Shown here piece by piece: positions 24,828 to 56,452 of a stretch of DNA of 64,000 bases. The stretch's first letter is position 1. Each line of letters opens with the position of its first letter. Source of the stretch: Symbiodinium natans (taxonomy: Eukaryota; Sar; Dinophyceae; Suessiales; Symbiodiniaceae); contig CAJNDS010002750.1 of assembly GCA_905221605.1 (NCBI GenBank), positions 124,001 to 188,000 on the forward strand. The letters run 5' to 3'. A program made the position numbers and the translations under genes. Below the pieces are notes generated by a model, which was given only the letters and a program-made list of their open reading frames with translations, ran no database searches and was not told the origin of the DNA.

Positions 24828-27800
24828 TCACAGTATCTTCAGCTGTGCGTTAGGGCAGCCAGCTTCTGCCTGCAGAAGAGCTGACACACTTCCAACACTT
24901 AGAGTCTGAGAAGCCCGAGAAGCCTGCCGACAGTAAGAGCGCGAGGAGTCAAGAAGGTTGCCAGAGAATCAGAATCTTGGCCATCACTTCCATGCCTTGC
25001 TCTCATCGAAGAGCTTCTGCAAGCCTTCCATGTACACCTGAGCTGCAGCATGACACATACATACTGATACATACCTGAGCTACTTTGAGCCATTTTCAAG
25101 AGACTTCTCATCATTACTACCGTTGTCCAGCCTTGTGCCAGTGGTCCACATCCTCGTTGGTGGGAGATTCTATCTGCGGCAAGTCAATTCCTTGTCCGAC
25201 CTCTCGGGGTTGAAGGCAAGGTCCCCTGTTGCCGTGCAAAGACAAAAGAATATACGGGTTGACGCATGTAAACACGTGTTGAGCGGGTAGAGTGCAGGCA
25301 GCCATGCAATGTCCATTGATACAAGACACTTGAAGATCTACTTCCTCACTAGCGGACTTTTGGGTGTGCTTCTCTTGCCGACAAGCAGCATAAGTCAGCA
25401 GCTTACTCTGTGGTCGGGGAAGGAAAGGAAGAACAGGCCAGCCAAAGAATGCCACCGCAGGGACATTGTTCCGAGCCTGAGGAGTTGGAGCCATACCCAA
25501 AGAGTGGTGCACCGCGGGCACTCAGTAGATTGGATGGCGACCTAAACCTCTATTACCCAGTAACCATTGCAAACAGTTTCTCGCGACCTCTCGAGTGGCC
25601 GTCGCAGGTTAGCGTGTTCTACAGGGGCAGTGCTGATGCGGGCTATCACGGGAGAGGGCGATTGAAAGCTTCCGATGCCATGAAGTCTAAACAAGGACCC
25701 ATAGTTTTACCTCGCACACCCCGGACCGTAGCTCACGCAATCCAATCAAAACATGACCCCCTAGAGTGTCTTGCTCCTTCAAGCGGGGCGTGTGCCGCCT
25801 TTCCCTTGCCTACATACGAGCATATTTCATGCTAACACATGGGTAGTTTAGGAGATCCAACTGTACCTGTATTCAAGTTGTGTCAGCAAGCAGTTTTGGT
25901 GTTCATACATTTCACCATTCTTAACGAGCCTTTTGCCCACTAACGTTTTACCATGCACATCATGATTTGATTCAGTACTGATGCGCTGACTCGGTCTAGC
26001 CTAATCATCCACACCCCACATCTTATGCGATCTGAAATTCAAAGGTTGGAACACACGTGTTAGATCGAAGTGTTGGTTTTCGCTGCGTTTGAAGTATATA
26101 CTGTAAAGCCCAGATTTTCCATTATTCGTGCTCATACTCGTTAAGACGCGACGACTCTCGGGGAGCTACAAAGGTGTGCAAAGGGAAGACAACAGGTCGC
26201 TCATGTAGTCTTGAGATTTGGTACTCTTTGTGGCTGGTTCGCATGCTTGCAAGAAGGTCTGTAACGTAATGTAACGTAAGCGCTCACAGTGGCTAGTCAA
26301 GGCAGCCTGATGAAAGACTCGAAGTTGACTGACATAGCACTGCACCGATGCTGCATCAACATGTCAACAAGCACTTGGGTCCCTCGCGATCTTCATTCGC
26401 AAAGCCTTCATGCCGCGGAACGTATAATACCTTGGCGCGGGAAGTCATGGTCAACCACAGTGGCTGCACAGGTGAGGGTGTCATTCTGTGTTCTCCGCGC
26501 GACCTCACATCATGCTGAGGTTTGGTTCTTCTGCAAGTCCGCGAAGCAGTCGTGATCTCGCTTGCAGCAAAGTCGCGTCTGGCACTCTCCAAAAGTGTAA
26601 ACAGGATGGGCGCGGTATCCGAACCTCGCTGTTGCTTTGCCCATGTGGGGACTCATTTATTGTGTAGCTTGTTTCAGGCTCACATGCAGGGCAATGGAAC
26701 GTAAGAAAACTGTGTCAATGGGGTCGGGCTGCACGAACCGAGAACAAAGTCACGAGTCAGGAAAAACGGGGCGCCGTGAACCTTACAGTTAAACCGAAAC
26801 TCTAAACCCTGTGGCGTTCCTGAAGCAAGAACCTAAAATGTCTAAATTAGCCCGAGTCATACTGTGATTCGGTTCTTAACGTAATGCTGCTACAAGATCA
26901 TTGAAAAACATACGAAGGACTACTGACCTTGCCCGTGCTTATTCCTGATTTGATTAGAATTAGATTTGAGTAGGATGTGTGCTGAGTTCCACGAAGTTGC
27001 ACACATCCGCACACCTTTGCAATCAGCAGCCTGTGCAATCTGCTAAGAGAAACTGGTAAGAGTGTTTTTTTTTTTGCTGCGGGTGCTTTTTTGTTGCGGG
27101 TGCGGGGCGCGCTTTTTTTTTGCTGCGGGTGCGGGGGCGCGCTTTTTTTTTCTGCGGGTGCGGGGGCGCGTTTTTTTTTTTGCTGCGGGTGCGGGGGCGC
27201 GTTTTTCTTTTTGTTGCGGGTGCCGTGGGGGCGCGTTTTTTTTTTTTTGCTGCGGGTGCGGAGCGTTTTTGCTGTTTTCTATATATTTTACTATGAAAAC
27301 CTCTATTTTCTCTAATTTTTAAAGGGAAATCCTCTTTCTTCTCTATATTCGAATATGAAAACCTCTATTTTCTCTACATTTAGTATGAAAACCTCTAGTT
27401 TTTCTAATTTCTCTATACTTTAATACGAAAACCTCTATTTCTCTATATTTTATAACGAAAACCTTTGTTTCTCTCTATTTTGGTCTATATCGTCATAGTT
27501 TTCCTCTATATTTAATGAGGAAGACATGAGACAGGAATACATGAGAAAATAATTCTCTGTGTTATCTCAATATGCGACTTGCAATTACAAGTGTCTTTGT
27601 TCCTCTTGTCCTATTTTAATGGGAAGCCTATTATTTTCTCTGTCTCTGAATAGGCAAACCTCCATTTTCTTAAAATTTGAACATGAAAACCTCTATTCTC
27701 TATCTTTGAATATCAAGACCTCTACATTTTAATATGAAAACACTTTGTGTTTTTGCTATATTTTCGTCAAGACATGAGAGAGGAATACATGAAAAGCTAA

Positions 27801-30207
27801 TTCTCTATATTGCCATAAGAGCACATGCATTATCTCTATCTGTGACTCGTAGACAACAAGTGTTTTTGTTCATGTCTCATAACACAAGCTCTATTTTCTC
27901 GATTCTTTACTAAGAAAACGTTGATATCTCTATTTTTAAACCGAAAATTCAACTTCCACTATAAGGTCTGAATTTTCGCAGGAAAGCAAGCATATATTCC
28001 GTCTTTTTTCAGGGGGGTTGGGGGCTGCGCAGACCGCCGCATTTGAAAACACAATGCTCGCATCATTGGTTTGGAAGGGATTCGTAAGCTTTGAAGCAGG
28101 CTTGCCGGCTAAAAAAGCGGGGGGGTTGGGGGTGGCGCAGCCCCCCCCCCATTTGCAAACACAATGCTCGCATCATCATGGGTTTGGAAGGGATTCGTAT
28201 GATTGAAGCAAGTTTGCCCGGCTAAAAAGCGCAGCCCCCCGCGGGGGGGAATGCTCTCACGATGGGTTCGGAAAGGATTCATTTGCTTTGAAGCAAGCTG
28301 GCATGGCTTTAAGAAGCGGGGGGGGTTGGGGGGGGCGCAGCCCCCCCCCCATTTGCAAACCCAATGCTCGCATGATAGGCTTGAACAAGAAGCGAGCTGG
28401 CACGGTTTAAAGAGGGGGGGTCGGGCGGGGTGCAGCCCTCCCTCCACCGTTTGCAAACACAATGCTCGCATGATGGCCTTGGGAAGGATTCATGCTTTGA
28501 AAACGCTTGCACAGTTTAAAGGAGGGGGGGGGTTGGGGGTGGGGATGGGGAGGCAATTGCAATACAAATGACCTGGGGGGTGGGGAGGAAGGGGGGGGGC
28601 GCGTTTTTTTTTTTGCTGCGGGTGCGGGGGCGCGTTTTTTTTTTTGCTGCGGGTGAAGGGGGCGACACGCGCCAGGTCACTCACTCACCGGGGCGGCCCC
28701 CGAAAAAAAGCACCCACAGCAAAAAAGCACCCACAACAAAAAAAAAACACGGGTTCCAACTGGTACTGCTAAAGGCAAATGCCCGTCAAGGCTCCGCAGG
28801 CAGTACTTGATGAAGCCTTTTCTGTTGCGAAGGACACAAACGTCCTCACACACGATGGCACATTGACATGGCACCGATACCTGTGCAAGCGAGTGCTGAA
28901 TGCTTGTCCTTTCCATACTCGAAGGCGACAGCATCCAAAAAGCCACCAGGTATAAATGAGATCTCAGTTAAGAAGCAGCAACTGCTCACGATGGCGGGTC
29001 ACCAAAAGGCACGGCTCTGCAAAATCAAGTCTTTCACAAAAACAACTTATCAGGTTCCGCCGTCTGCTTTCATTCAAGAAGCATTGACACCTTTCGTCAT
29101 GTGGAGTTTGAAGCCTCGCAGGCTGTCAATGCCCAGCGCATCAGCACATTACAGACAAAGGGCCTCAGACGAATGGCTACGGCTACGGCAATAGCATGCA
29201 GTGCATGCAGTAGCTGTCCTGCGTAGTTTCCTTCCACTGGTTAAAGCTCCCGGGTTGGGCCTTCCGGGTCGCAGGCTTCGATGGCCCTGTCCTCGGGTCA
29301 TTTGTGGTTCTGCGCCGGCGATTGCTCTCATTACGTTAAACATAAAGTTGAAACACTGGCCTTTCGTTGTCTGGAAGACGGCTCTATACTGCTCTAGATT
29401 TTTCTGCTTTAGTAAAAAGGCACCCACACTGTCCGCGCAATTACTTGGAATGCAGATGGCCTCGGCTTCGTAGGCCTCGCTCATCAGCCGAAAGCCGGGG
29501 TTCTTGTGCCTGCGACAAGCTGCGCAGTAGTCGCAAGATACTCCAAACTGGCCCAAACGAACCCTAAAACCTATAATCCCAACTACACAAACCAGCCCTG
29601 AGCACTAGAACTACTCCGAAATTGCCACCCTGGCCTCAGGGTGGGGTCACACAACCATGCAACACGGGTGGCCGCGCGCATGAAGTCCGGGTTGAAGGTG
29701 CCGTTGATGGTGAACCCTGCTGAGAGGCAGCCTGGCAAGTGCTGGCGCAAGTGCTGGCTGAAGCGGAAGTGTAGGGATGTATCGCGATTGATGGTTGCCA
29801 TGCCAAGGAGCCGTGTGGGTGGAAGCCGAAGAAGCTCTTCGTGGGTCGGATGTCATGCAAGGCACCTCGAAGAGCTGTCTCAGTGTAGTAGTCCTGTGCG
29901 GATCTTGGTATCGGACATCGGGCGTAGCAACGTAGCGACGTAGCTGCAGCAGATAGGCATTGACACACAGTCCCGCGGTGCCTTTGCCCATGTGCTGACA
30001 TAGTTGAAGAGCCAAGGCCTTGGAGAAATGGTTCCTCGGCTGAATTTTGCAAGTGTCTGTGCAGCTTGTGGAGGCACGCTGCCGATAACAAGTGTCTACC
30101 CAGCCTACTCGTGTCGAAACGGCAGACCCTACGTGCCTGACTTTGTCCAAGCGACCTGATCGAGTAACGATCCAAGTCAGGAACGAAGCAAAGATCGCAG
30201 CAGCCAT
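24828..30207 (-). CDS. DGAT2-type acyltransferase, copy 1 (15 exons)
   Basis: A diacylglycerol/monoacylglycerol acyltransferase of the DGAT2 family (PF03982), expected in the ER membrane, where it transfers fatty acyl from acyl-CoA to diacylglycerol in oil synthesis. Exons: 30156-30207, 29973-30034, 29812-29893, 29635-29731, 29462-29509, 29261-29286, 29083-29114, 28909-28962, 28795-28844, 26577-26624, 26388-26430, 25390-25476, 25132-25200, 24996-25037, 24828-24869. They sum to 834 nt and 277 residues, in frame throughout. Motifs: catalytic FFGFHPHG (HPHG 63-66), AGFTINGTFNPDFM, RHKNPGF, FIPGGF (PGG 138-140), RNRKGFIKY, HPVYTFGE (174-181), NNVPAVAFFGWP, IDLPQIESPTNEDVD, VYMEGLQKLFDE. The ATG follows an in-frame stop, and copy 2 has the same start context (GAGGCAATGGC). 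The N-terminus is short for the family. Most donors are GC or GA; only intron 1 starts with GT. The exon 5/6 join is ambiguous by a few bases. Substrate (DAG or MAG) cannot be told from sequence. Confidence 0.93.
25477..26387. other. Intron 11 of DGAT2 copy 1, 911 bp
   Basis: The intron between the exon ending LRMKI and the exon starting ARNNVP. It holds no recognised gene. In copy 2 the same intron is 3,192 bp and contains two transporter genes. Confidence 0.85.
27063..27270. repeat. Tandem T-run plus GC-rich repeat, unit about 30 bp
   Basis: Six to seven units consist of a run of 6-12 T followed by gctgcgggtgcgggggcgcg or close variants. Homologous units occur at 28,598-28,660, and reverse-complement versions (cacccacagcaaaaaagc) at 28,696-28,750. 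Confidence 0.93.
27280..27960. repeat. A/T-rich degenerate repeat
   Basis: Variants of gaaaacctctattttctcta recur irregularly through about 680 bp. The base composition is sharply different from the GC-rich repeats on either side. Confidence 0.85.
28012..28545. repeat. Tandem repeat, unit about 100-110 bp, G-rich
   Basis: Five to six units begin with a G run plus ttgggggtggcgcagccccc and continue with catttgcaaacacaatgctc, gcatcat and a ggaaggattc-like block. Units begin near 28,012, 28,120, 28,228, 28,317, 28,415 and 28,524. Spacing varies and no reading frame is conserved. Confidence 0.9.
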
Positions 30208-31559
30208 TGCCTCATTTGGTCAACTGGTTGCTTGATCACAAATGGCTTCTAACGGACATTTTATTTAGTTGTGCAACTAGCATTTTAAATACATGTTCTG
30301 AGGCACTTAGTAGCGCAAATACAGGTACCTTAGTTCGCTTGGTGAACATAATTGGAGGTTGGTTCCACAACTTAAACTAATCATACTACCAAAGCCTGTG
30401 AATTACAAATCTCGCAAAAATGCTTCAAAAAACAAAACGGCTGTCTAACAAACACATAATTGGCTAAAGCGAGACCTCAGTTTTGGATGTCGAGCAGGAC
30501 TTGGACGCGTAGACTTCCTAAACCCTTCAAAACGCAGCGGACTAATACCGCGTAACCAGAAAGAAGAATTCATAACAATGGCTCACAAAGAAACCGGGTA
30601 TATGGGTAGCAACTAACGCACTGTGGCTACTTGGGAGCAAACATCCCACGCGCCCCACACGCAACTAGTGCGAAATTGAATTCTGCAGCGTTTTCTGTTC
30701 GTAGCCTTGTCAATTCTGATTCTGTGCCATGCCAGGCTGGTTCCTGAAGGCGGCTATCGCATTTCCTGAATCTGGTTCCCAGAACGTTGCCTTCGCTTCC
30801 TGAATGTTGCTGCTCTGATCGACGCAGTGGCCAGTTGAGTGGGCACGCGAGTTCACTCGTGACTGGCCCAACCATTAATCGAAGCCTTCAGAGCCTGTGC
30901 TGTCTGTATCGGCTGCCAGATTGGCAGCTGAAGGAGGTGTTCCCCCCTGTAACGCGACTGTATTGCAATCCTTCCTAGAAGAGCCGACTTTCAAGAAAGT
31001 ACTCACCCTCTGTACAACTCACTTACAACAATCGTGAAAAGGGAACCTAGAATTCGGACTGGGCTAGTTCCCACAAAGGCGCGAGAGGCCATCGGGAATA
31101 GATCAAGCAACAGTCTGCGTCCTTCTGCCCCCCATCATCGCGATGTTGGTAGCAGACTGTTTTCGGTCACTGAAAGTCGGCTTCAATCATGTCCACGTCT
31201 AACTGCAGACGTGAAGACCGCTGCCGCAGATTGTCATTTCTTACATGCGCGTAATGCACAAGAGTTCTGGAAAACTGAACCTCTGCCCTGGCTGTCATGC
31301 AGATGTCTCTATATAATATATGTATACAAGTACATACATTTGGAGACAGAGAGAGAGAGAGAGAAAGGCAGAGAGCGAGGGAGAGAGAAAGAAGGAACAA
31401 AGAAAGACAGGCAGACAGGGAGACAGGCAGACAAACAGTGAGAGAAAGAGAGCGAGAAAGAGCTCCTCTAGTTTCGTATGGAGTTGCGTGTTTGCATTTT
31501 CTAGTCATGCATGTGTACAGATTCTTTGGCAGTTTACAGTGAGGAAACCTTTCTTAACA
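30208..31559. other. Intergenic; GA-rich microsatellite at 31,345-31,470
   Basis: This lies between gene X copy A and the start of DGAT2 copy 1. It is AT-richer at 30,240-30,600 and contains a gagagaga-rich tract. It presumably includes promoter/trans-splice acceptor sequence for DGAT2 copy 1, but no specific site can be named. Confidence 0.5.
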
Positions 31560-32123
31560 TCAAACAAGGAACGATGCCATCATGGGCCCTTGCAGCCATG
31601 CACAAGACGAACACGCACAGAGCCTTGGCTGAAATTCCTTCCCTAGAATCATACATGGAATGCTGAGCACTCTCCGTCTCCAACACAATTCGTGCAACAG
31701 CAAGCTGTAACATCTCGACTCAATCTCACTCCGAGGAGCGGGGCGCAGCGACTTCGGCCCGGCCATCAGTCCCACTCCGGCTCCTGAAAGGTGAAACTGA
31801 CGGGTTTCTTTGGACTCGTCATGACTTGTCCAGATGTCACAGGACGGCAAAAACCGTCCGAGGCCGAGACCCATGGAGGCCAGCAAGCCTTTGGCTCCGA
31901 AAGGAGCACCCGCGGTCAGTAGGGAGCCGAGTAGCAGGCCTCGCACAAAGGAGCCGCGCCGAAGACCGAATCGTGGGTTTCAAGTCTCCACTGTCCAACG
32001 TGCTCCCTAAGCTTTAAAGGGATTGGAGTCCACCGGTCTGCCCTCCTCCATCTGGCCTGGGGGAATGACCCAGGCAGGGACGATGATAAGATGGGCGAGG
32101 AGCCCCTTCGTCCATGACTTCAC
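31560..32123 (-). CDS. Gene X copy A: small Gly-rich hydrophobic protein (3' exons)
   Basis: Three exons conserved with copy B at 41,938-42,393. Exon 32,057-32,123 (after cccgag) reads VKSWTKGLLAHLIIVPAWVI then PP. Exon 31,859-31,939 reads LLLGSLLTAGAPFGAKGLLA then SMGLGL. The exon from 31,783 reads AGVGLMAGPKSLRPAPRS and stays open to a stop at 31,560. Phases join (CCA G/GC CTG; CTC G/GA GCC), with GC and GA donors. The product has two or three Gly/Leu-rich hydrophobic stretches and a basic tail, suggesting a small membrane protein. The family is not recognised. In copy B the frame stops one residue after the shared PRS, whereas here it runs about 50 residues further, so one C-terminus may be altered. 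The 5' exon is not established. Confidence 0.6.
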
Positions 32124-32980
32124 CTCGGGTGCATAGCTCCTAGGCCCACCGAGCAACCGCGCAGCCGCCGACAACCAAAGATGGTAAGGCAGTGCCAAGC
32201 GTGCGTAAAGGTGTCTACACAGACTGCCATGCACGCGGTCCTTCCAGCTTGCCCTATCCCGCCCTCGCTCTGCACTTGCCAACAAAGCCATGACAGATGC
32301 AGGATGATGCATTCCTTTTGCTGCACACCTTTAAAAAAGGAAAGTGCACATAGTGCCATGTTCGGCTAAGAAAGCTAAGACCGATTGAAACGAAGAGTTC
32401 ACATAAGCGTAGTGTCGCATGTGCCGGCATGCAAGGATGGTGCTCGATCGAAAGCCTTGCACGAATTGTAGATGAAGAGGATGTCAACCTCTCGGCACAT
32501 GCTCCTTCCTACAGCAGCATTCAAAAGGGCCCATCTGCTTGAATGCCGATGCTGAGCAGGGATGACATGGAGAAACCCTAGACGCTTGCAAATCTCCACC
32601 AGATGAAGGATCAAAAACCTGGCAGCAGGACAAGCCACACAGAGGGCATCCTTTCCAGCAGCATAGGCACAAACAGTTCTGAATTCTGTACCCACCTAAG
32701 CCCAGCCTGGATCCTTCCCTCAAGTCAACAGCCAACTCGAAGTCACAAAATCGATTCGTTCATAGAGCCCTATGGCTTGGAAGGTGCGTCTCCAGGTCTC
32801 ATGGGCCGAAGGCCGAAGGCTTGCAGTGTGGCCATGCCGGCCATTCCGCCTTTCGGCTGAAACTTTTATGGCCGGGCCTTCGCGGGAATAAGAAAAGTGG
32901 GCAGCTCGTCCACACACCCTGACACTTAAATTGGCGAAGGCATTGTACTTGGAGAATTCGTTTCGGAACGAATCAACATT

Positions 32981-35900
32981 TCACAGTATCTCCAGCTGTG
33001 CATCAGGATAACCTGCATCGGCCTGCAGAAAGAGAAGCACAAAACTCTGAGGATGTAAGAAATGACCGCACACAATGTCACAAGGTTGGAGGAGCGTAGT
33101 TCTGCATCGCTGTTGCAGCGCTGGTGATCTGCCTTGCTCTCATCGAACAGCTTCTGCAAGCCATCCATGTACACCTGGCAGCGCAGTAGCAAACCAAGAG
33201 TGAGGGCAGACGATTGGGCTTGAGGCGCTCACGATGTCCCGACTGTTACCCGCTGAGTATCTCTGTGGCACCCTGCCTTGTGCCAGTGGTCCACATCCTC
33301 GTTGGAGGGAGATGGGATGTGTGGAAGGTCGATTCCCTGTCCAACCTGTCAAGGTCAACACATGCTCCACCTGCAGAGCACATCACTTCGTTGGAAGGCT
33401 GCTTTCTGAGCTCGAACCTCAAAACACAGTTGGCATACTCTCAGACCGCGAGTGCGTCTTTGCCGTCAAGGCGCGTAAGTGTACAACCTCGACTGCGGCC
33501 GCGGCAAGAAGGGCAGCACGGGCCAGCCAAAGAAAGCAACAGCCGGCACATTGTTCTGGCCCTTGGCGGGTAAAAAACTATGTCAAGAACTGCACTTTCA
33601 ATTTGCTTCGGCCAATGTGAACATTGACATGCTGTTGACATGCTTAGACCGTCTCAACCTACACAAGTCCTTTTTATCGCCTAAGCCTTGTAAGCTCAAG
33701 CGTTGTCGGTTGAAGACTCCTCGCTGGAGTAGTCAAAGTAGGTCCCATCTGCCGTGCTCTTGGCGAGCAGCGGGGCCAGCGGGAGCGGGGCCCCCCGGGA
33801 AGCAGAAAGAATTTCCCGGAGCTCCCGTAGCCGATGCCACTTATCAGGGTCAATGCCACCCATGTCAAGCACTGCGAAGGTGTCTGGGGGCAGGTCCGTG
33901 GCATAGTTCACGGGCGGATACAGTGCAGAAGTGGCTGCATAGGACCGTAAGGCTGTAATAGCTAGACCAAGCTGACAGACGCAAGTGATGAAACCAGTGA
34001 GAATTTTGACGGAGACATATGAGGGCATCACCCAGCTTTCACCCTCAAAGTCTTTTCGCACCAGCTTCTGCAACACTTTTTCCAACAAGCGTGTCAACAG
34101 CATCTGCCACACAACGAAGTGCTCCATTGCATTCACATTAGCTTGCGTTAATGTATCAGAGCTGATGGACTCCGTCATAAGTGGGAGGAGGCACTTGAAG
34201 CACCACAGGCCGAAAAGGGTACTTACGGTCGCCACAAACCCACACATCTTATCGATCTTGGCGAAGATGCCGGACTGAGCATAAGGCTGGTTGAAGGAGT
34301 CAATCAGCCCGACCACAGGGAGGATCACCACGAACTGTTGTAAGCCAAACACAAAGAAGCGAAGATGCCAAAGTTTAACTTTTCGCGCACAGCAGCTCCA
34401 TCCAAAAATGCAACAGAGAGGCGGTTTCCCATAAACTGGTATCGGCTCTTCTGGCAGATGCGTGACGATTTGCTTCTGGCTGCCATTGAGAATGAATAGC
34501 AACTCAATGATCACGTTCACGGATAAGGCCAGCTGACATGTCCGCAGCAGGGAGAGAAGCTCGGCAGCACCTGGCAAGAACATCTGCAAGGCCGCCGTCA
34601 CGGAAAAGGTCAAGGGCATAAGCAAGAGCACTATCACTCGGGTTGCCTGCAAGCTTCAAGACATCCACAGGGGGGTATGGGTCATGCGGCCACATAAAAA
34701 TAAGCGGAAAGCTTGCTGAGCAACTTAGGGTCTCGGGCACCGAATGACGAGATCAGCTCCTCGTCTCCAAAACCCTGCGCTCTGGCAGCTGCGATGTGCC
34801 GCTTGATGTTGTAGACAGAGATGCCAATGGCCAGGGCGGTGCTAGCAGTGCCAACGAACCAAAAAGCGAGAAGGCACGCAGGTGGGTTTTCGTACATATA
34901 CAAGGCATTGGACTGTGTGAAGCCATTCGTCTTAGGGGCCGCTTGCGCCATCCACACTCGACGCTGGCGCTACCTTCGAAGCCCTGCATGAGCCAAGCAG
35001 CTGCTTCGTCATGCTTCCGGTGGTTTGTCTTTGCTGCGTCTTCTCTCACCGCCAACCCCGCTTGCGACAGTTCACCAAACATCGAAACGATTGCAGTACC
35101 CTGGCAGCCTCAACGATGCCAGCACAATGCAAATATCTCACGGTTCAACACACCTGGTCACCCGCTAATGTTTGTAAACGCAGCCTTTCAAATCAAATTG
35201 TAAGAGCCGACGGCAGCTGCTCAAACCGTGGGACAAAATTGCAGCTGATGAGACTGACACTTTTGGTCAGATTCAACACAGCCTGCAACATCCTGCAACT
35301 GCAGCCGATTGCACCCGTACCTAGATTGGCAGCTAAACACACACATTCACATGCTCACTGGCAGCTCGTACTTCTGACGAAGAAGTATCAACTGCTTTTG
35401 GCTTCTTGTCGGGATCAATTCCACCCATATCAAGAACAGCCATGGTGTCTGGGGGTAGGTCCGTAGCAAAGTTCACTGGCGGATACATTGCTGGTCCAGC
35501 TTCATAGGCACGCAGGCCGAGATGGGCAAGGTAGAGCTGAAGTACACAGGTCAGGAAACCTGCAACAACTTGAAGGAAGAGCGTGTTTGGCATTGTCCAA
35601 TTATTGGCATGAAGATCGGTCTTCAAAATCAAGGGCATGATCTTGTCCATGACCTTAGAGAATAGCATTTGCAGCAGCAGGAACTGCTCCATGGCATCCA
35701 GCGTGCTCTTTGAAGCAGCACGTTTCTGGATGGACTCCGTCATAAGTGGAAGGAGGCACTTGAAGCACCACATGCCGAACAGTGTACTCAAAGTCACCAC
35801 AAGCCCGCATGCCATGTCGATCTTGGCGAAGATGCCAGTCTCAGCATAGGACTGGTTGAAGGAGTCAATCAGCGCCACTACAGGGAGGATCACCATGAAC

Positions 35901-38900
35901 TGCTGTAAGCCAAGCACAAAGAAGCGAAGATGCCCAAGTTGAACTTTTTGCGCGCAGCAGCTCCATCCAAAAATGCAACAGAGAGGCGGTTTCCCATAAA
36001 CGGGTATCGGCTCTTCTGGCAGACGCGTGACGATTTGCTTCTGGCTGCCATTGAAAATGAATAGCAACTCAATGATCACGTTCATTGATAAGGCCAGCTG
36101 ACATGTGCGCAGCAGGGAGAGAAGCTCGGCAGCACCTGGCAAGAACATCTGCACGGCGGCCGTCACGGAAAAGGTCAAGGGCATAAGCAGCAACTTCATG
36201 ATGCGGCTTGCCTGGGACGTTGAGGCATGACTGTTGAAGGCAGCAACAAAACAGTATCAAGCTGCTCACACACGACAGCCTGACAGTTGAGACAGCTGTT
36301 TGCACACAGGAGACCCTTGCACCAAAGGAAGAGATGAGCTCATCTTGTCCGAAGCCCTGCAATGCTGCACATGCAGCATGTTGCTTGATGTTGTAGATGG
36401 AGATGCCAATAGCCAGCACAGCGCAAACTGATCCTGCTATCCAAAGGCAGCGCAACAGCAGAGGTGGGTCATCATACATATAGAGCGCCGTCGCATCGGT
36501 CGCATCGGTCGCATCGGTCGCCTGCTCTCCGTGGACATTGCTGGCCACAGCACCAGCAAACAGTGCTGCCATCAACAGGGCAGAGGACATTGCCCCTTGC
36601 TGCTGTCTCGCTGCTTAGATACACACTACCCTGGCTGCTTGAGATAGTGCTCAAGGTTGCCACACAGCTTGAGGTCTCCTCACTCCTCACAAAGCTCTCA
36701 GTGAACCCGCACAGCTGGCTCGGAGTGCATGGCAAATGAGCTAAGGCCGACACGATCTGCATGCGCAAAGGCTTCAGGCCGCGGAAGGTATAATACCTGA
36801 CGGGCAGGCAGGTACCAGGCAGGGTACGGACTCGCCCACTTCAGAGCTGTTCAGCTGGTAGCCAAGCAACGTCTCGCACTCGCCAAATGTGTAAACAGGA
36901 TGGGCGCGGTATCCAAACCTGGCTTCACGCTGTGCAACCACTGCATGCTGATCGCAACTGACAACCCTAAATGCCAGGATGTTTCGGCTCGGTACAAGCT
37001 TACAGGGCTCTGCCCTCTCGCCAAATGTGATCGGCACAAAAACCACATCACAAGGTGCCCATCGCGACCGAGTCACTGCAGGCAGTACTTGATGAAGCCC
37101 TTCTTGCTACGAAGGACGCAAACATCCTGGAAAGCTGCATGTCTCTGTTTCTTCCCCGACGCTCCTCGATACATTTTGTTTCTATTTCTTGCGTGTGGCA
37201 TATCCAGGGTTCCCTCCATCTCCTTCGCTAGGCACTGTTTGCGGGTGCTGAGGCGATGCGTTATAACACAAGATGAAACGTCGGTTGGCACATGTTGGCA
37301 CACCCACCTCGAGCCTTCGCGGACATGCAAGCAGAAAAACATGCGACGAGGGGTCCCTCTCTTGCACCCACGCCCAAGCTCGTCTTTCGGATTTTGGCAG
37401 ATCTCTCCCCATCTCTCTCTTTTCCGCTCTCTCGCTTTCACCTCTTCTCCCTCTTCCTCTCTATCTGTCCAGGGGCGAACCCCGCATTCCAGCGCGCCCC
37501 AAGCACCAGTCTGCGTGAGACCTCCTGCATAGCTCTGCTCGACTCCCCCCCCCAGCCCCCCAGCCCCCCAGTCCCCCAGCCCCAACAAACGTCAGCTACT
37601 TTTTCGTGTGCATTCCCACTCCCAACAAGAAAGGGCTTCCCATACCATCTCGGTCTGACTATGTCTGGGGCACTTGCAGCTTTCACATGCTACAGTGGTC
37701 ACCGGGTCACCCTTAAGCACAAGATGCCGTCTCTCTCTCTCTCTCTCTATCTCGTTCTCTCTCTCTCTCTCTCTCTCTCTCGCTGCTTCTCTCTCCCGAG
37801 TTTCCTGCCCTCTTCGTAATTCTCCTTGCATGGCTTGGCTATTCCCTCTAACCTCTCTACCCCAGGCCATTACGCATCCTTCTTTGTGGCTTCGTCGGGA
37901 AGGTACATTCTTCGCCGGTGGGATACGTCCCGCGTAAAGATGATGCCACTCATGCCTATGCTACGAGTGTGCGATGTCCTTCCCAAACTCGAAGGCAACT
38001 GCATCCAAAAAGCCACCAGGAATAAACGCAACCTTGGTCAGCAGGAGGTGATGAGGCACAACTGCACAACAGTCCGGGGCAACCGTGGACCACCCCAATG
38101 CAACCGCCGCATGTTCCAAGTGATTGTGAAGATTGGCAAAAGAAGAACAGTTGCCATCTGATTCAAGCAGCGTTCACGCCGGTCGACATTTGGAGCTTGA
38201 AGCCTGATGGGCTTCATCTGACAAATATACCAAGCAAAGAAAGACTCGGACTAGCCCTGGACGCAGAAGTGAAGCAATGCTTTCTCAGCCTTACGAGACA
38301 AGGTCAGTAGCGCCTTCAGCATCACAAGCTTCGATGGCCCTGTCCTTCACGCGAGCTCGAAAAAAATCGCCCGATACTTTGAGGACTGAGGACATTGCTT
38401 TCACATGGTTTCACAACTGTGGGCTGCTCCGCAAAGCGCTGCAGCATGTTGCAGCACTTGAGTTTGCACAGCAAAAGAAGCCGTCCTCTGCGAGGTATGC
38501 CTCACTCATCAGCTGGAAGCCAGGGTTCTTGTGCCTGGTGCAGGTGCACTGAAACTTGCAGATCACGAAACTAGTGCGGAGACGAAACCATTCTCAGACG
38601 AGCATGAAAAGTAGGCTAGTCTTCCCGGTGCAAAGCTCACAAAAAAGTGACGACATGGACTGAACTGACCAAATGACATGCAGGATCGTTACTCAGACAG
38701 TGTCTGGGCCTGAGGTTGTTGTCACACAGCCACGCCACTCGAGTGGCTGCCCGCATGAAATCTGGGTTGTACGTGCCGTTGATGGTAAAACCGGCGCAGA
38801 GGCATCCTGAGACCAAAACTATAAAGGACAATAAACAAGACTCATGCGGCAACATTCTTTTTGAGTCCTGTGCCGCCTGTGCCTCACGCAGCGATGGCTG

Positions 38901-39307
38901 CTTGCAATGCCCAGGAGCCGTGTGGGTGGAAGCCGAAGAAGCTCTTCGTGGGTCGGATGTCATGCAAGGCACCTCGAAGAGCTGTCTCAGTGTAGTAGTC
39001 CTGTGTGGATCTTGGCATCGGACACCGGACGTAGCAACGTAGCTGTGGCAGATAAATATTGACACACAGTCCCGCAGTGCCTTTGCCCACGTGCTGACAA
39101 AGTTGAAGAGCCAAGGCTTTGGAGAAATGGTTCCTCACTTGGGCTTTGATTATGCAAAGAATGCAAGCCCGAGAAAGTATAGAACATTGTGATGGCATCC
39201 CGTCAGCTCATCGAAACTTTTGGGGCATGATCCTTTCAAGCTTTGTCTGAGCCACCCGAACGAGTCACCAGCCAAGTCAGGAACGAAGCGAAGACTGCAC
39301 CGGCCAT
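32981..39307 (-). CDS. DGAT2-type acyltransferase, copy 2 (15 exons, hosts two nested genes)
   Basis: Paralogue of the copy at 24.8-30.2 kb, with the same predicted reaction. Exons: 39256-39307, 39072-39133, 38919-39000, 38710-38806, 38487-38534, 38314-38339, 38172-38203, 37979-38032, 37077-37126, 36871-36918, 36754-36796, 33475-33561, 33277-33345, 33133-33174, 32981-33022. All fifteen exon lengths equal those of copy 1 and give 277 residues, about 86% identical by hand count. Motifs are kept: FFGFHPHG, NGTYNPDFM, FIPGGF, SKKGFIKY, HPVYTFGE, YYTFRGLK, NNVPAVAFFGWP, VYMDGLQKLFDE. No stop or frameshift breaks it, so it should be functional. Donors are GC or GA at most introns and GT at introns 1, 9, 10 and 11. 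Intron 8 is 852 bp (64 bp in copy 1) with a CT microsatellite and C-rich run. Intron 11 (33,562-36,753) contains two complete transporter genes on the same strand. Confidence 0.92.
33696..34951 (-). CDS. Organic solute transporter alpha / TMEM184-like protein A (nested gene)
   Basis: Exon 1 is 34,739-34,951 (71 codons) and exon 2 is 33,696-34,646, giving 387 residues. The 92-bp intron has a GC-type donor (GGT/GCC) and gcag/GCAACC acceptor. The family is Solute_trans_a (PF03619; SLC51A/TMEM184), seven-helix membrane proteins moving organic anions or steroids or acting as accessory subunits. Shared features are the second helix MPLTFSVTAALQMFLPGAAE, an LRTCQLALSVNVIIELLF helix, the Cys cluster CCIFGWSCC, and the helix FGLQQFVVILPVVGLIDSF followed by FAKIDK and a WCFKCLLPLMTES helix. 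The C-tail holds YATDLPPDTFAVLDMGG. An in-frame TAG lies 18 nt before this ATG. Unlike copy B it has no signal peptide, so a further 5' exon is possible. It lies in intron 11 of DGAT2 copy 2, 134 bp from the intron's 3' end. Confidence 0.85.
35333..36590 (-). CDS. Organic solute transporter alpha / TMEM184-like protein B (nested gene)
   Basis: Exon 1 is 36,321-36,590 (90 codons) and exon 2 is 35,333-36,211 (292 codons), giving 382 residues. The 109-bp intron starts GC (GGT/GCAAGG) and ends cccag/GCAAGC. It begins with a likely signal peptide (MSSALLMAALFAGAVASN), then an ATD triple repeat, then the first core helix with LAIGISIYNIK and ELISSFGA, also present in copy A. Exon 2 carries MPLTFSVTAAVQMFLPGAAE, LRTCQLALSMNVIIELLF, the Cys cluster CCIFGWSCC (Cys pairs 168-169 and 175-176), FVLGLQQFMVILPVVALIDSF and a WCFKCLLPLMTES helix, matching Solute_trans_a (PF03619). 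The tail differs from copy A after PDK. Its stop lies 381 bp upstream of the copy A start, so the two form a head-to-tail pair inside intron 11 of DGAT2 copy 2; its ATG is 163 bp from the intron's 5' end. Substrate unknown. Confidence 0.88.
37127..37978. other. Expanded intron 8 of DGAT2 copy 2, 852 bp
   Basis: The copy 1 equivalent is 64 bp. It contains a (CT)n-rich tract (about 37,727-37,795), a run of ccccagcccc units near 37,548-37,582 and CT-rich stretches at 37,400-37,470. Long minus-strand frames here are repeat artefacts. Confidence 0.8.
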
Positions 39308-40623: not shown

Positions 40624-41310
40624 GGGTAGGGCACCATTCAGCTCCGTGATTTCGGATCACGGGGTTCGTTATGGTTCTTTGAGCTGGCTCGCCATACTCA
40701 GACCAGCCCCCCGTCCGATTCAGATCCACGACTGCGATTCAGTGCACATGCAGCTTCCGCACGATTCGGATCACGGCTTTGGGGGGTTGTCTTTAAGCCA
40801 CGCCCTTCAGGAACTCACAGCGGCTACTATTGCGACGTACAGAGCCCTACACACCAACGCCTGAACCCTTTCAAAAACCTCACAAGCCACGGCCGACAAA
40901 TTGGAGGGTCTAGGTCTTCTTTGCAGTCATTGACAAATACTGGGATGTATAAGAAAACCCAAGACCTCCGAAAAAGGGGGCCGAGATCTGGGTGGGGCAA
41001 ACCCCCTTAGAACCCAAGAGTTTAAGCCCCAAACACCCAAACCGAAGCACAACTTATCATCTTGAGTTCTCTTGTAAGACACACTTTTCTTCAACGACTG
41101 GGGAAAACTTAAACCCTAAACCCCAAACCGAGGCAGTCACCTGCGACAGCTGCAGAAAACAGCTCGGAGCTAAAGCCCCAAACCGCAAACTCTCAGCCCT
41201 AAACCCTAAGCCATGTGAAGCCTGCACCCACTGTGTCGGGTTAGCTGCCAACCTCTTTTTGGTGCTGTCCGGGATCCGAAACGGGCCAATCGGCTGAGCT
41301 CACGCAAATG
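40624..41310 (+). repeat. Dispersed repeat, copy R
   Basis: Same element and orientation as 4,666-5,430. It contains the ttcagctc-gtgatttcgga block, cacgactgcgattcagtgca, a hairpin left arm (ccgagatctgggtggggcaa, about 40,980-40,999) without the matching right arm, a CCCTAAA-type tract (about 41,107-41,215) and gctgcagaaaacagctcgg. The two copies differ by many substitutions and small indels, so they are old. Confidence 0.8.
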
Positions 41311-41599: not shown

Positions 41600-41611
41600 C
41601 TTGAGCCAAAA
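41600..41611 (-). other. Possible relict spliced leader (12-base match)
   Basis: The minus strand reads TTTTGGCTCAAG, identical to the last 12 bases of the conserved dinoflagellate spliced leader, and is preceded by AG. It would be a 5'-truncated leader carried into the genome by reverse transcription. Chance expectation for a given 12-mer on both strands of 64 kb is below 0.01, but it is a single short match. Confidence 0.45.
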
Positions 41612-41937
41612 CTTCTGCAGCACAGCATCCCCACGCCAGCCTGAACGGTGGCTGGCTCCTCAAGGTGGTGTGGGTGGGAAAGCGAAGAGTGGGGTGGCTT
41701 GGGCGTCGAATGCTATGGCGTTCGATGCTCCGCATGTCCCTTCTCGCACTAAGTGTGCTACACGACAGGTTCGGTCGGAGAGTCCACTGCGAAGCCAGTG
41801 TATTGGGTTGGACCGAAGGACCTTGTGATCATGTTGTTGCTCTCAGTCTCCAATTGCCATCCCCTTTCGCGCCCGAAATGCCACTAAAACTCCATAACTA
41901 CACGGCAACGCAACCCACGAATCAATCTCCCAGTGAC

Positions 41938-42393
41938 TCAGTCACTCCGAGGAGCGGGTCGGAGCGACTTCGGGCCGGCCATCAATCCCACTCCGGCTCC
42001 TGAGGGCTTTCATGACAATTTCTTGACTTGTCCAGATGTCACAGGACGGCAAAGATCTGAGGCCGAGACCCATGGTGGCCACCAAGCCTTTGGCTCCGAA
42101 AGGAGCACCGGCGGTCAGCAGGGAGCCGAGTAGCAGGCCTCGCGCAGCGCGCACAAATGATCCGCGGTGAAGGCCGAATCGTGGGTTTCAAGGCTCCGGT
42201 GCCTCCTTTGTGCTCCGCTGCATATTGCTCCGATTTGCTCCCTGGGCCCTTTTAGGGTTTGGAGGCCCCACAAGCCCTCTAGGCCTAATACTTCATTTGC
42301 TCGAGGTCTGCCCTCCTGCGTCGGGCCTGGGGGAATAACCCAGGCAGGGACGATGACAAGATGGGCGAGGAGCCCTTTCGTCCATGACTTCAC
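41938..42393 (-). CDS. Gene X copy B: small Gly-rich hydrophobic protein (3' exons)
   Basis: Paralogue of copy A at 31,560-32,123. Exon 42,327-42,393 reads VKSWTKGLLAHLVIVPAWVI then PP. Exon 42,058-42,138 reads LLLGSLLTAGAPFGAKGLVA then TMGLGL. Exon 41,938-41,999 reads AGVGLMAGPKSLRPAPRSD and stops. Donors are GC and GA, acceptors AG/G, and phases join. Upstream and in the same open frame lies a Cys-rich segment (42,394-42,552) with CNNCGFARCTCFLDGECVPV that has no counterpart next to copy A; it may be an in-frame 5' extension or a separate exon. The product looks like a small membrane protein with Gly-rich helices. I do not recognise the family. The differences between copies are few (I/V, L/V, S/T, G/R), which supports the reading frame. 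Confidence 0.6.
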
Positions 42394-45300
42394 CTCATAC
42401 GCAGTGCGCACGCGCGGCCCGGTTTCCGTAAAAACTGGCCCCGTGACGCACACAGGTACACATTCTCCATCCAAGAAGCATGTGCATCTGGCAAAGCCGC
42501 AGTTGTTGCAGCGATCAGAGGTTGGGCAAAGTGAAGTGCTAGCCGGCGAATCCTGGCACGCACCCAGGTCACAGAAATTCACTAGTCTGATGCAAAGGCC
42601 CCGCCTGTTCTCTTCAATTGAGCCTTGCTTGCCTAAGGTGATCCGAACATAGATGCGCTAGGAGTTGGAAGCTGCAGAGATTCTAGCCCAGTGCTGCTGG
42701 TCATCTCTGAGGCGTCCACTTTCAAAGCTTGCCAAAGCACTGCCATGCACTTTGGACGCCATGATTCTGCCCAACGACAACTTGCTAGTTCTCGCCGAAA
42801 CAGAAGTGTTGTTCTTTGGCATAGGTATGCTGCTCTGCCTGATCTGAAGGAACGAGTCTGGGGTGAGCATGCGTGTTTCCACCTGCGCCGGTCCCGAACC
42901 GAAATGCAGCTGTCGAGATGCTCGTTATGTGCGCAGCCTATCTGAACGAAAATGTGGTGCCACAGATCGTCACAAGCGAAGAACTGTTAGTCAGACTGCA
43001 TCAGTAAGTTTGATCCAACCGCTTGCGATACAAAAGAGCCACCCCCGCCCCCACCAAGTAATGAAACTGTGGTGTGGCTCGATTCGTCTGGAGCCTTTGA
43101 AGCGAGGCAAGCTACTCAATCTAGGGGTTCTTGCCTTCGCAACGTAGTTCCCTAACTGCACATGCTCAGGAAGTACATCAGCTCCGGACCTTCGAGGAGC
43201 TCTTGCCATCGCTACCATTCGATTCGCTCTTGGAAGGCATGGCGTACAGTGTTTACAGACACAACAGCTTGTGCAAGTTGCCTGGAGCATGGTTAACCCT
43301 TGCCCAAATGCGACTTCGAGGGTTGCAACTTACTGCTTTGCAGTATCCCCACTCATGGCCCATGTGGATCCATGTGGACTACTTGAGCCACAAAGGTAAT
43401 TCCAAGGCAAGCAAAACACAAAACAACCATGCATCCCCATAAAACAGCCTCTGGGAGAGTTGCAGACAGACTTCGGCTTTACATGGTGCAGGGAACCCTA
43501 TGCCAGGGCTCGCACGAGGACTCCTGCAACGTGGGAACGATTCTACACAAGTGCAAGTGCGCCACATCAAGATGTGACAGTGACGCATGCAACTGCTGCT
43601 CTTGTACAAGTAGCAATCCCGCCTAGAGTTTCTTACACGTACGTTGCATCTTGCTGCCCTGCTGCAGTGCGAATCTGCATGTGACACTGCCACCTTCCGG
43701 TTCTAGCAGAGAGCGGCTTCAGCGGCTCTTCCTTGAAAGCATACTCCTCGGTGTACGTACACCGAGGATCACCGAGGCACCACACGGCCAAGCTTGTCTG
43801 AGCCTCTGACCCAGTGGCGCAGCCGGGTCGCTCCAGCGCAGCCAGATCCCGCCACACTTGCCATAGACAAGCTGCGGAAGCAGCGGAAGCATGAATTGCA
43901 TATAATTGCATGTCACGATGTGTTGCTGAAGGGCTGAAGAAGCTTAATTGGAATCTGCAGCTGGTATCTCTTCATGGACTGACTCGCAATCGATTCGGGA
44001 CTTGGCAAGATGCTAACGATGCTATAAGGACGCCATTGCTACCGAGGATGCTATGGAAAGTTCAGCATTCCACATTCCGTAAGGCCATGAGGCACCCAAG
44101 CTATGCAGGACGGCACGGCACATGCAAGCCATCGCATCGCTCACAGCATCGAGATAATCGTACTCTATAAGCACCTCGACAGGACTTCGTAGAGGCTCTG
44201 TTGCTAGCAGCTAGATCAACTAACACAGCCAGTTCGTTGCAAAGATCACACCTCTTCATCAGCAGCATCTATGCAGGAGGACTCACAACCTCAACCACCG
44301 GATCGATGGCATACCGCTTGAGCATCTCCGGTCCATCGCCCACCTCTGCACAACATCCAGCTCAAAGAGAGAGATCCACTGCTTCCCAGCACAATGATGC
44401 GGATACAGCGGACGCATGGCTTCCGAAGTCTTCGGTACGGTCCTAGGCCTACGCCACATACGATGCCTTCCAGACTACAATGCTACCGGCAGCTCACGTC
44501 ATCAAGAGGACCACAGCTCAGATAAGATCGGCTCAGCGAGCTCAACTGCGTAGTAAGTTCGGTGCTTTCGAAGGGCTGAAAGTTTCGAGCATCCTGCTGG
44601 AAGATCGTTGCAGTAACCCATGGAATTACATGTCCAGTAGCTGCTCAACATTGCTCAACTGCACGCTCGAGCTTCAACGTGCACACTCCGAACTGCCATC
44701 CTTTGGCTAAAAACTGCATCTATCACGAATTGTTTGGATCGGCTAGCGGCCAGCACCTGGCCTCATGGCATTGAACGTGGAAGAGCGCTTCGTCACTTCG
44801 CTCTCCCTGCCGGTGTCGATTAGTGGATGTCTCAGCAGTGGCCCTACTTGTGGCGTGTGGAGATTGCTTGCGTCAGGTCGGCACCGAATGTCTGAAACAG
44901 TCAATGCTTCTGTTCTGCCAAAGCCACGCATCCAAGACAGTGCAAAGACCCTTTCCTGGCTTGCGGGGCCAGTGCTACCGGTGCTCAGCTCTTCACCCAT
45001 TCAGCATGTCCAGGTTTTTGAAGCAGTCCCTCACCTGCACGGGCCATAAAAATACCATGCAAGACTCTGCTTCCAAGCATCTGTGGCTTTGGCATTCTGG
45101 CATTGTCGGCACCGGCTTTCTTGCAGGGCTTTGCTGCAGGAGTTGCCCAATGAAGCCAACGGAGCAGAAACGAAAACTTGCGAAAGACTCAATAGCGAAA
45201 TCCCGGCATGCAAGGTTTCCTTCAGCTACCCTCCAGGGCAACGGCTAGTGATGGCAGTATACCAGCTGTCTCCCCGTCAGCTAGACCTGAGAGAGACACC
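42394..45300. other. Cys-rich open segment, otherwise no gene supported
   Basis: 42,394-42,552 holds the Cys-rich frame discussed with gene X copy B. Beyond it, 42,600-45,300 has short frames on both strands. The plus strand at 43,910-44,710 is unusually open in blocks separated by stops, which could be a decayed coding element, but no transposon motif was recognised. Confidence 0.35.
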
Positions 45301-53600: not shown

Positions 53601-55916
53601 TTAGGCATGGCCAGGTCTGGCTCTCTTGGTCCTTTTAAGCACTGGCGGTTCGGGAACCTCGACGGACCATTCGTGTTCTCTCCGCAGAAAAACAGCCGCA
53701 GACTTTGATGGCGGATCCTCGGAGAGTTTCTGCTCATAGCATTCTTTGAGATACTCTGCAGGAAAACGGGTATCCAGCGCCGTCGGCGTTGTCGATGCAG
53801 AGGGTTCTGAGTCGGCCTTGTAGGAGTTTACGTAGTATAGACAAGCCAAATGCTCCTTCCATGAATAATGAGCATCCTCGATGCAGGCACTGGCAGGAAG
53901 GGCTTCATGCAAACACTTTTTGAGATAGACTCCAGGTATCTGGCCACAGTGCGTAGCTCGCGACCACACCTCTAGGAAAACAAGAAGCCGGAAATGTATC
54001 ATCGCATCTTTCGAAGCCATCTTCGCAAACCCTTCCACCAGCGGCTCATACAAATATGGCTCCAGCTTCCAATGGCGATGCCAAGTAGTGTTCATGAGCC
54101 AGTCCACAAATAGCTGTTGGACCCAATCAGACCCTTCGCCAGGGTACCAGAGCGGAGCCAGTTCCATGCAAATTTGTAGCCTCTGGCTCTTCCTCAAGTA
54201 GCATGCCCGGCCAGCCATGGCTGCCAGCAGCAGCCGCAGTGTGGTCACTGCAGATGCTTTAGCGACTTCGTCGTCAAGGCTCTGCGCGTTCTGCATTGCC
54301 CTTTCAAGAGCTGGTCGAAAGTCTGCGTCTACCGACTTGTCATGGCAGAGGTACGGCATTTGCTGGTTGCATGCATCGCCATGCTCCTTGGAAAACACTT
54401 TGGGCCGCGTGATGCTGTTAAGTGCCGTAGTGATGTCAGGGATGTTTAGGCCAATCTTGGCAAAGTCTTCCTCACATGGGTTGCGAAGAACATTAAGCAA
54501 ATCTCCGCTTTGCACGCTTCTCCTGCTATCAGGACAAGTTAGAGAAGCCGCGCTGCAGTGAAGAACGTAAAGGGCAGAATGAAAAGCAGCTGCCTGCAAG
54601 GGCTGCCGCCTCTGCGGAGAAACGCTACTCATGCTACTCCAGTTCATGAGAATGGAAAGCAGCAGCTGCCATATCCAAGGGTCCGCCATCAGCCAAGTCA
54701 GATCTGCACCAAACACACTCAAAGCCTTCGGCGAGTCGTCGACTCTTGATTCGACCAGATCTTTTAGTACCGTCTGTACATCGCACACCTCACCCTGCCG
54801 AACTGGACCCTCACTGAGTCGCGCAAAATCAACAACGCAAGACGTCATCTCATCCCATTCCTCCAGGTGGGCATCAACATATCGTACTGCTCCGCGCCTC
54901 GAAGCCGTAAAGGTCCCCTGAAACTGTCGTGCTCCATGGCTGCCAATAAGACGGCTCTCCCACGTGCCGTTCATCCAACGAAGCTTGTCTCCTGAGACAT
55001 CACAGACACAATCGAAGATTGTGTCGACCGTCATTTGCGTAATCTTTAATCTTGATCCCTGAAGTTCTGCGCGGACCTCTGTGACGCCCTTCAAGAACGA
55101 TTTGCCCGTCAGAATTCCCCCAGGTCCAGGCTCCAAGCAAATCTTGTAGCTGATCTTGTGTTCATTGTTCTGCCATGCTGCATCAACCTGCCAATTCCCG
55201 ATAATGCTTGGAAGCAATACTCCCTGCTCCACCGCACAAAGTATCAGACTGGAGCGTATGGACCTGAGAAACGGCTCCGCCCCACGTGAGACGGGCATAC
55301 CCTTTGTTGCCTTTGGTTCATTTTGTGAATCAAGACGGAGCACAGGAGAGTCAGTCTCCTCAGATTCCACAGACTGTCTTGCCAGCCTTTTCACATACTT
55401 GATGATCTGTTTGTAAGTCCCCGCTCGGCCACCAGTCACATCCAAGAGCTTTAGCAAGTCGGGATGTTTCAGTGGTCGCACAGAGCCCGGATGCCATGAT
55501 GCTGCTGCCCAGCATGTGTTGGACTTGTAATTGGAGTCCATGTCTGCGGCTTCAAGACTCCACGCTGTGCGCCTGCATTCTGGGTCACGGCGCATTGCCT
55601 CTACCAGATTTGCAAGCAGGGGATGCACGGCAGCTTTGAGCAGAGCTGCATTTGTTTCCAAGAGTTGCTGCCGCAACGCCAAGGGAATTTTCGAAAGCAC
55701 CTTGCCATCCTGGTTGGCCTTCGAAGCTAAAAACTCAAGAGCCTCTTTTTCCTGGATCTGTACTCTTTGTACTTTCTGAAGGCAGCTTTCGGAACTTTTC
55801 CTTTTCGCATCCGCCAGCAACTTGTCCATCTCTGCATGGATTCCTTCCCAGATGGAGTTGCTCTTGCACATAGTCTGAAGAGCATGTATTCCTGCAGTCG
55901 TGCCAAGATCCTCCAT
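53601..55916 (-). CDS. Long intronless ORF, 771 residues, function unknown
   Basis: The longest non-repetitive reading frame in the window. The first ATG (gcggccATGG) gives MEDLGTTAGIHALQTMC. The frame is open a further 27 codons upstream, where CEDCGAPCG is encoded, so translation may begin earlier or a 5' exon may be spliced in. No domain is recognised. Visible features are a basic/acidic N-terminal helix (about residues 25-90), a central segment with IGNWQVDAAW and LRWMNGTWES that resembles beta strands of a lipocalin-like or ligand-binding fold (a guess), Leu-rich helical regions (about 420-700), and a basic tail KRTKRARPGHA that could be a nuclear localisation signal. It is one uninterrupted exon, in contrast to the 15-exon DGAT2 genes, so it may be a retrogene or retain one huge exon. 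It lies on the same strand as its neighbours. Confidence 0.75.
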   Translation of the reverse strand: MEDLGTTAGIHALQTMCKSNSIWEGIHAEMDKLLADAKRKSSESCLQKVQRVQIQEKEALEFLASKANQDGKVLSKIPLALRQQLLETNAALLKAAVHPLLANLVEAMRRDPECRRTAWSLEAADMDSNYKSNTCWAAASWHPGSVRPLKHPDLLKLLDVTGGRAGTYKQIIKYVKRLARQSVESEETDSPVLRLDSQNEPKATKGMPVSRGAEPFLRSIRSSLILCAVEQGVLLPSIIGNWQVDAAWQNNEHKISYKICLEPGPGGILTGKSFLKGVTEVRAELQGSRLKITQMTVDTIFDCVCDVSGDKLRWMNGTWESRLIGSHGARQFQGTFTASRRGAVRYVDAHLEEWDEMTSCVVDFARLSEGPVRQGEVCDVQTVLKDLVESRVDDSPKALSVFGADLTWLMADPWIWQLLLSILMNWSSMSSVSPQRRQPLQAAAFHSALYVLHCSAASLTCPDSRRSVQSGDLLNVLRNPCEEDFAKIGLNIPDITTALNSITRPKVFSKEHGDACNQQMPYLCHDKSVDADFRPALERAMQNAQSLDDEVAKASAVTTLRLLLAAMAGRACYLRKSQRLQICMELAPLWYPGEGSDWVQQLFVDWLMNTTWHRHWKLEPYLYEPLVEGFAKMASKDAMIHFRLLVFLEVWSRATHCGQIPGVYLKKCLHEALPASACIEDAHYSWKEHLACLYYVNSYKADSEPSASTTPTALDTRFPAEYLKECYEQKLSEDPPSKSAAVFLRREHEWSVEVPEPPVLKRTKRARPGHA

Positions 55917-56452
55917 GGCCGCATCCTGCGCAGAAGAGATGCTCTCCCTTCCGCAAGGCGCCCCACAATCTTCACAGGTCCTCTCCCCCGCAAACACAGG
56001 CTAGAAAGGGGAGGGCTATGCGCACATGATCTCACATGATCTCACATGCTCACATGGCCCTAGGTCAATGATTGTTTGTAGGATATCAGCTGCATGCAGT
56101 TCTGCGGAAACCACTGGGTGGTACGTACGTACAGAGAGAAAACATATGCAGAAATTATCACAGATGCTTATTGCAGCTGGAAGAGCAGCTTCGAGCCACA
56201 GAGTAGCACCAGTTAGTCGGTAGCATCATGCAACGCGCTCGTAAGATGCATAAGACGAAGGGCTACGTGGAGGCATGGAACTGATCATCAAGTCTGAGTC
56301 GAAGTTGTCGAATGAACACTGGCCCTACTCGGAGGGTGGTCCTTTGATTAATGAACTATAGTAAACTATCAGCGAATGGAACAAACCCCCCCACAGCGTT
56401 GGTCTCGCCAAGTAAGCAGCTCCAGTCCCGGTTGGCAACTCGCCTCCTGGGC

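Follow-up and report, generated by a model that had tools for sequence, protein, structure and literature searches.

A same-strand pair of Ost-alpha-like genes nested in a short intron of an apparently intact DAGAT-family gene of the dinoflagellate Symbiodinium natans

A 64,000-nucleotide stretch of the Symbiodinium natans genome (GenBank assembly GCA_905221605.1, contig CAJNDS010002750.1, positions 124,001 to 188,000; hereafter the window, in whose coordinates all positions are given) carries an array of two genes inside an intron of a third. The host belongs to a tandem pair of DAGAT-family (DGAT2-like) genes, of which it is the second (copy 2, 32981-39307, minus strand), and its intron 11 encloses a pair of genes of the Solute_trans_a/Ost-alpha type, A and B, on the host strand. 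The reading preferred here, to which we give a probability of about 0.6, is that the host is intact and that the nested pair is released from its transcript by leader trans-splicing, the release being the least certain part.

All gene models were built from the sequence, with exon boundaries set by hand from the reading frame and from a comparison of the two host copies. Genes A and B encode 382 and 387 amino acids, respectively, in two exons each, with open frames and an intron at the same place. Together they span 36590-33696, wholly inside intron 11, leaving flanks of 163 and 134 nucleotides. Exon 1 of gene A (36321-36590) begins with an ATG at 36590 and ends at a GC donor, and exon 2 (35333-36211) closes with a stop at 35335-35333. 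After a spacer of 381 nucleotides (34952-35332), exon 1 of gene B (34739-34951) leads to a second GC donor and exon 2 (33696-34646) ends with a stop at 33698-33696. A preliminary description of the locus had proposed two complete, same-strand, two-exon Solute_trans_a genes at these distances from the intron ends, and the rebuilt models bear this out. One small point needs correcting: the ATG of gene B starts at 34951 and not at 34952. The spliced products of A and B score 36.2 and 34.4 bits against PF03619 (Solute_trans_a/Ost-alpha), above the cut-off of 24.9. Proteins of this family have seven membrane spans. A simple hydropathy scan finds six segments in each of the two products, the first in A covering residues 1-19, and the protein of gene B has no match among solved structures (E up to 1). 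Transporter activity of A and B is predicted from Pfam only.

Copy 2 has 15 exons, as does its tandem paralogue, copy 1 (24828-30207, minus strand), which lacks the nest. Exon lengths are identical between the copies in 15 of 15 cases, partly by construction given the hand-set boundaries, and both coding sequences measure 834 nucleotides including the stop, encoding 277 amino acids with no internal stops. Support for the models that is independent of the hand-set lengths comes from the DAGAT profile (PF03982, cut-off 22 bits), which each protein matches in one continuous stretch, copy 2 with 67.7 bits (E=1.1e-18, residues 51-275) and copy 1 with 77.1 bits (E=1.5e-21). The HPHG motif, typical of the DAGAT/DGAT2 family, is present in both copies as FGFHPHGCL. 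Copy 2 has no match among solved structures (E up to 1), and Pfam is the only source from which acyltransferase activity of the host copies is predicted.

The reading frame of the host continues across the nest. Exon 11 of copy 2 (36754-36796) ends in LRMQI at a GT donor (GTGTCG), and after the 3,192 nucleotides of intron 11 (33562-36753) the coding sequence resumes in exon 12 (33475-33561), which starts with GQNNVP and is followed by exons 13-15 (33345-33277, 33174-33133 and 33022-32981). The corresponding intron of copy 1 measures 911 nucleotides and lacks the nest. When scanned alone, exons 1-11 of copy 2 match positions 57-195 of the DAGAT profile (E=1.5e-8), while exons 12-15 match the complementary positions 228-295 (E=2.5e-9). 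The ratio of nonsynonymous to synonymous divergence (dN/dS) between the host copies is 0.117 overall (500-replicate bootstrap 95% interval 0.077-0.172), with 0.115 in exons 1-11 and 0.112 in exons 12-15. Because the two halves of the domain are complementary and purifying selection is equal on both sides of the nest, the host does not look broken, and the exons on either side appear to form one gene. The preliminary description had reached the same view from the frame and lengths of the host exons, and its statement that the paralogous intron carries no such insert also stands.

Host and nested genes would be transcribed in the same direction, so that one precursor could meet either of two fates. 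In the first, intron 11 would be cis-spliced out, producing the full host mRNA and discarding the nested genes. In the second, the leader would be trans-spliced at an AG upstream of each nested ATG and polyadenylation would take place inside intron 11, yielding separate nested mRNAs and a host transcript cut short after exon 11. Leader trans-splicing was already suggested in the preliminary description as a way to free the nested genes from the host pre-mRNA. Such a release is plausible, as it fits both the anatomy of the locus and co-oriented dinoflagellate gene clusters, which are possibly transcribed together (PMC7245778, PMC11453091). Multi-gene transcripts that undergo trans-splicing are reported for some tandem-arrayed dinoflagellate genes (PMC11453091).

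Several points weigh against this reading. No convincing relict leader is found by gene A, where the best match (11/21) is reached by 297 of 500 shuffles, or in the spacer, where a match of 14/21 is reached by 15 of 500 shuffles and ends in a mismatch run. Dinoflagellate tandem arrays seem to be expressed polycistronically only on rare occasions (PMC11453091), which speaks against a shared precursor, and the same review cites a study whose title reports array transcripts as not polycistronic. In the 1,058 eukaryote genomes of one survey, the share of nested intronic genes in protists is reported as negligible compared with animals (PMC8527503). The exon boundaries of the host and nested models are hand-set, and the pairwise dN/dS values are averages since duplication, in which a host function lost only recently would not show.

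That the nested genes have promoters of their own is almost as likely as a shared precursor. Under this alternative, which has a substantial if minority chance of being right, the nest is real and A and B are transcribed independently of the host, starting within or close to the 163-nucleotide stretch ahead of A and the 381-nucleotide spacer. Each gene has its own start, stop and intron, the rarity of polycistronic arrays points the same way, and the conserved spacers of arrays in Polarella glacialis have been read as support for spacer promoters (PMC7245778). However, the non-coding sequence before A and B amounts to merely 163 and 381 nucleotides, without above-shuffle similarity to each other, and the possible co-transcription of co-oriented clusters argues for a common transcript.

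It is improbable that the insertion broke copy 2, turning exons 12-15 into stranded relics and leaving the work to copy 1. In human cells, nested genes on the strand of their host can be linked to premature polyadenylation, exonisation and intron retention in that host (PMC3192792). From this system such effects would be predicted for a host upstream of a same-strand nested gene, as at the present locus. Leader trans-splicing is not known from the human system. Purifying selection measured between the copies would be compatible with a recent loss. Yet copy 2 has no stops and keeps every exon length, constraint is the same on exons 12-15 as on exons 1-11 (0.112 vs 0.115), and the donor and acceptor of intron 11 both conform to the local type.

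The nested pair is itself under constraint. A and B are identical at 232 of 357 aligned residues, and their dN/dS is 0.369 (bootstrap 95% interval 0.275-0.487). Over the 325 codons that align ungapped, divergence is a mosaic: a 100-codon segment from residue 99 of A contains 15 nucleotide differences, where shuffles average 59.9 and 0 of 5,000 go as low. Third positions differ at 6 of 100 codons inside this tract and at 104 of 225 outside it. Exon 2 of A begins at residue 91. A pattern of this kind is what gene conversion leaves in a pair of old duplicates. On either side of it dN/dS is 0.34 (before) and 0.29 (after), with upper bootstrap limits of 0.61 and 0.47. Judged by its sequence, the pair looks alive. 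That A and B are instead decayed copies is very doubtful. Selection acts less strongly on them than on the host (0.37 vs 0.12), but the frames are open over their full lengths, the place of the intron is shared, the ratios outside the conversion tract are 0.34 and 0.29, and the assembly yielded no further close copy (E up to 0.001).

The assembly search covered 759,417,921 bases in 2,543 contigs, and its counts are lower bounds. With a threshold of E up to 0.001, the matches of protein A are confined to the two nested genes themselves (at least four rows, all at this locus; 7 candidates scored). The PF03619 profile gives at least five rows, two of which are A and B, while the other three loci (3.3-3.6 kb each) have no significant similarity to either gene (best E 0.20). 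With host copy 2 as query, at least 15 match rows are found (29 candidates scored), 11 of them from the two local copies and the remaining four from distant paralogues on contigs C2062 (two rows), C2464 and C2106. The idea that the nest is an assembly misjoin is scarcely credible, as the window is without any N, host exons 11 and 12 are in frame on either side of the nest, the exons past the nest occur once per local copy among those at least 15 rows, protein A is without a match elsewhere and the assembly is reported to be a hybrid long-read one (PMC8045281).

The same searches bear on how the nest arose. In the C2062 paralogue, coding blocks reaching to residue ~200 and starting from residue ~208 are separated by ~640 bases, which points to a nest-free intron at or very near the position of intron 11; protein A has no match on that contig (E up to 0.001). 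With introns lacking the nest in both copy 1 and the C2062 paralogue, parsimony favours gain of the pair in copy 2, and A and B probably entered after the duplication that gave rise to copies 1 and 2. Insertion scars were sought by aligning locally, in seven pairings, the two flanks and the spacer of the nest and intron 11 of copy 1. In six pairings the score stayed under that of the best among 50 shuffles. The other, which set the 5′ flank against the 3′ flank in reverse complement, equalled the best shuffle with a score of 13, and the set gives no grounds for claiming transposon ends or a target-site duplication. The A-B spacer has no above-shuffle similarity to intron 11 of copy 1 or to the other flanks. 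Retroposition of spliced A and B mRNAs is also unsupported, given that no convincing relict leader is present and that A and B have each retained an intron, in matching positions.

Gene conversion has probably acted on the host copies as well. Exons 2-3 are near-identical between them (29812-30034 and 38919-39133, minus strand; 58/62 in exon 2 and 82/82 in exon 3), whereas the remaining sequence has diverged further. The 48 codons of the tract hold 4 differences, where shuffles average 14.5 and 0 of 5,000 go as low, which likely reflects a recent conversion. Synonymous divergence (dS) between the host copies is 0.66 over the whole coding sequence, with 0.56 for exons 1-11 and 0.98 for exons 12-15, and that between A and B is 0.9-2.1 in four segments clear of their conversion tract. 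Ordering the host and A/B duplications by these values is not possible because of conversion in both pairs and saturation.

Nesting of genes in introns is already known in Suessiales, and the locus described here is a real case of it whose compactness stands out. In Polarella glacialis, a member of this order, 4,898 of 58,232 and 3,359 of 51,713 predicted genes lie inside introns (6.5-8.4%), with up to 18 and 24 nested genes per host and full-length transcripts cited as support (PMC7245778). One Polarella host, a putative alanine-tRNA ligase gene, holds 15 nested genes in three introns (PMC7245778). As in Polarella, the genes studied here occupy an intron of a multi-exon gene, and similar genes are arrayed in one host. 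The locus is therefore less surprising than the preliminary description took it to be, with intron-nested genes, including arrays, published for this species (PMC7245778) and nests accompanying leader trans-splicing in a ctenophore (PMC8527503). However, the EvidenceModeler step of the Polarella pipeline predicted genes inside introns only above 10 kb (PMC7245778), unlike the host intron here, which measures just 3.2 kb. Such a requirement in one pipeline step means that short nests may be under-annotated. Among the matches listed in a search of open-licence papers, PMC7245778 is the only one found to report nested genes in dinoflagellates. In a comparison of Symbiodiniaceae genomes (PMC8045281), the word ‘nested’ occurs 0 times in the main text, and the methods, as excerpted, name EvidenceModeler and leave long introns unmentioned.

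Nests also coexist with leader trans-splicing outside the dinoflagellates. The ctenophore Hormiphora californensis has nested intronic genes alongside leader trans-splicing, and like the present locus its genome contains same-strand (‘parallel’) nests (PMC8527503). Unlike here, the host organism is an animal, and release of its nested genes by the leader is not shown in the excerpted text of PMC8527503. A glass sponge with a reported leader also has nested intronic genes (PMC10282587). Closer to home, the pair resembles the dinoflagellate tandem arrays associated with leader trans-splicing, which likewise consist of related, co-oriented, head-to-tail genes (PMC11453091). Gene conversion is one origin named for such arrays (PMC11453091), and A and B bear its signature. 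Unlike those arrays, the present one lies inside an intron of another gene.

The locus offers a short, clean test case for how dinoflagellates sort same-strand nested genes, with the nest-free intron of copy 1 as a built-in control. Since no other close copy of A or B was found in the assembly, their transcripts should be assignable unambiguously. If release from the host precursor is true, leader trans-splicing would also resolve genes within genes. A bolder extension, speculative and rather unlikely, is that intron 11 would act as an intronic, leader-resolved polycistron whose mutually exclusive outcomes couple transporter-like and acyltransferase functions, and that compact nests might be widespread in Symbiodiniaceae but missed in short introns. 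Annotation steps that admit nested genes solely in long introns can mis-model loci of this kind.

The 30 introns of the four genes (28 host, 2 nested) have GC (20), GA (7) or GT (3) donors, and all of them end in AG, followed by G in 29. With 27 of 30 donors being GC or GA, in a small sample with hand-set boundaries, the proportion is above the 25-74% published for GC/GA-AG boundaries in Symbiodiniaceae (review PMC11453091). In 15 of the 30, the intron and the exon after it start with the same two bases, a count made without a chance control and reminiscent of intron gain by target-duplicating elements. Lengths vary widely between the host copies elsewhere too, with 64 and 852 nucleotides for intron 8, and 2,173 nucleotides in copy 1 against 161 in copy 2 for intron 9, so that a long intron 11 is by itself not unusual here. 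Intron 9 of copy 1 (26625-28797, minus strand) is rich in repeated GC-rich and AT-rich units.

Leader-like sequences occur upstream of the host copies. One at 30231-30251 (minus strand) matches the leader at 15/21 positions, 23 nucleotides before the ATG of copy 1, and 0 of 500 shuffles of the 500-nucleotide upstream region are as good (four regions tested). It is a possible relict leader and suggests an old retroposition of the acyltransferase gene, predating the gain of its introns. The equivalent region upstream of copy 2 scores 13/21 only, a value reached by 81 of 500 shuffles. Another leader-like stretch, at 41600-41620 (minus strand), lies ~2.3 kb upstream of copy 2 and matches at 16/21 positions, the last 12 bases being exact.

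Elsewhere in the window, no tRNA and no Rfam match at gathering thresholds was found. Ten further long open reading frames have no Pfam match, a scan in which exons shorter than these frames would be missed, and neither do 6 of 8 frames of another set from the window, one of the six being the exon 1 frame of gene A. An open frame of 799 amino acids without a Pfam match lies on the same strand at 53601-56000 (minus). A duplicated block upstream of each host copy (31717-32126 and 41935-42396, 72% identity) suggests that the tandem unit includes upstream sequence, and a second duplicated block pairs 4669-5387 with 40626-41254 at 66% identity.

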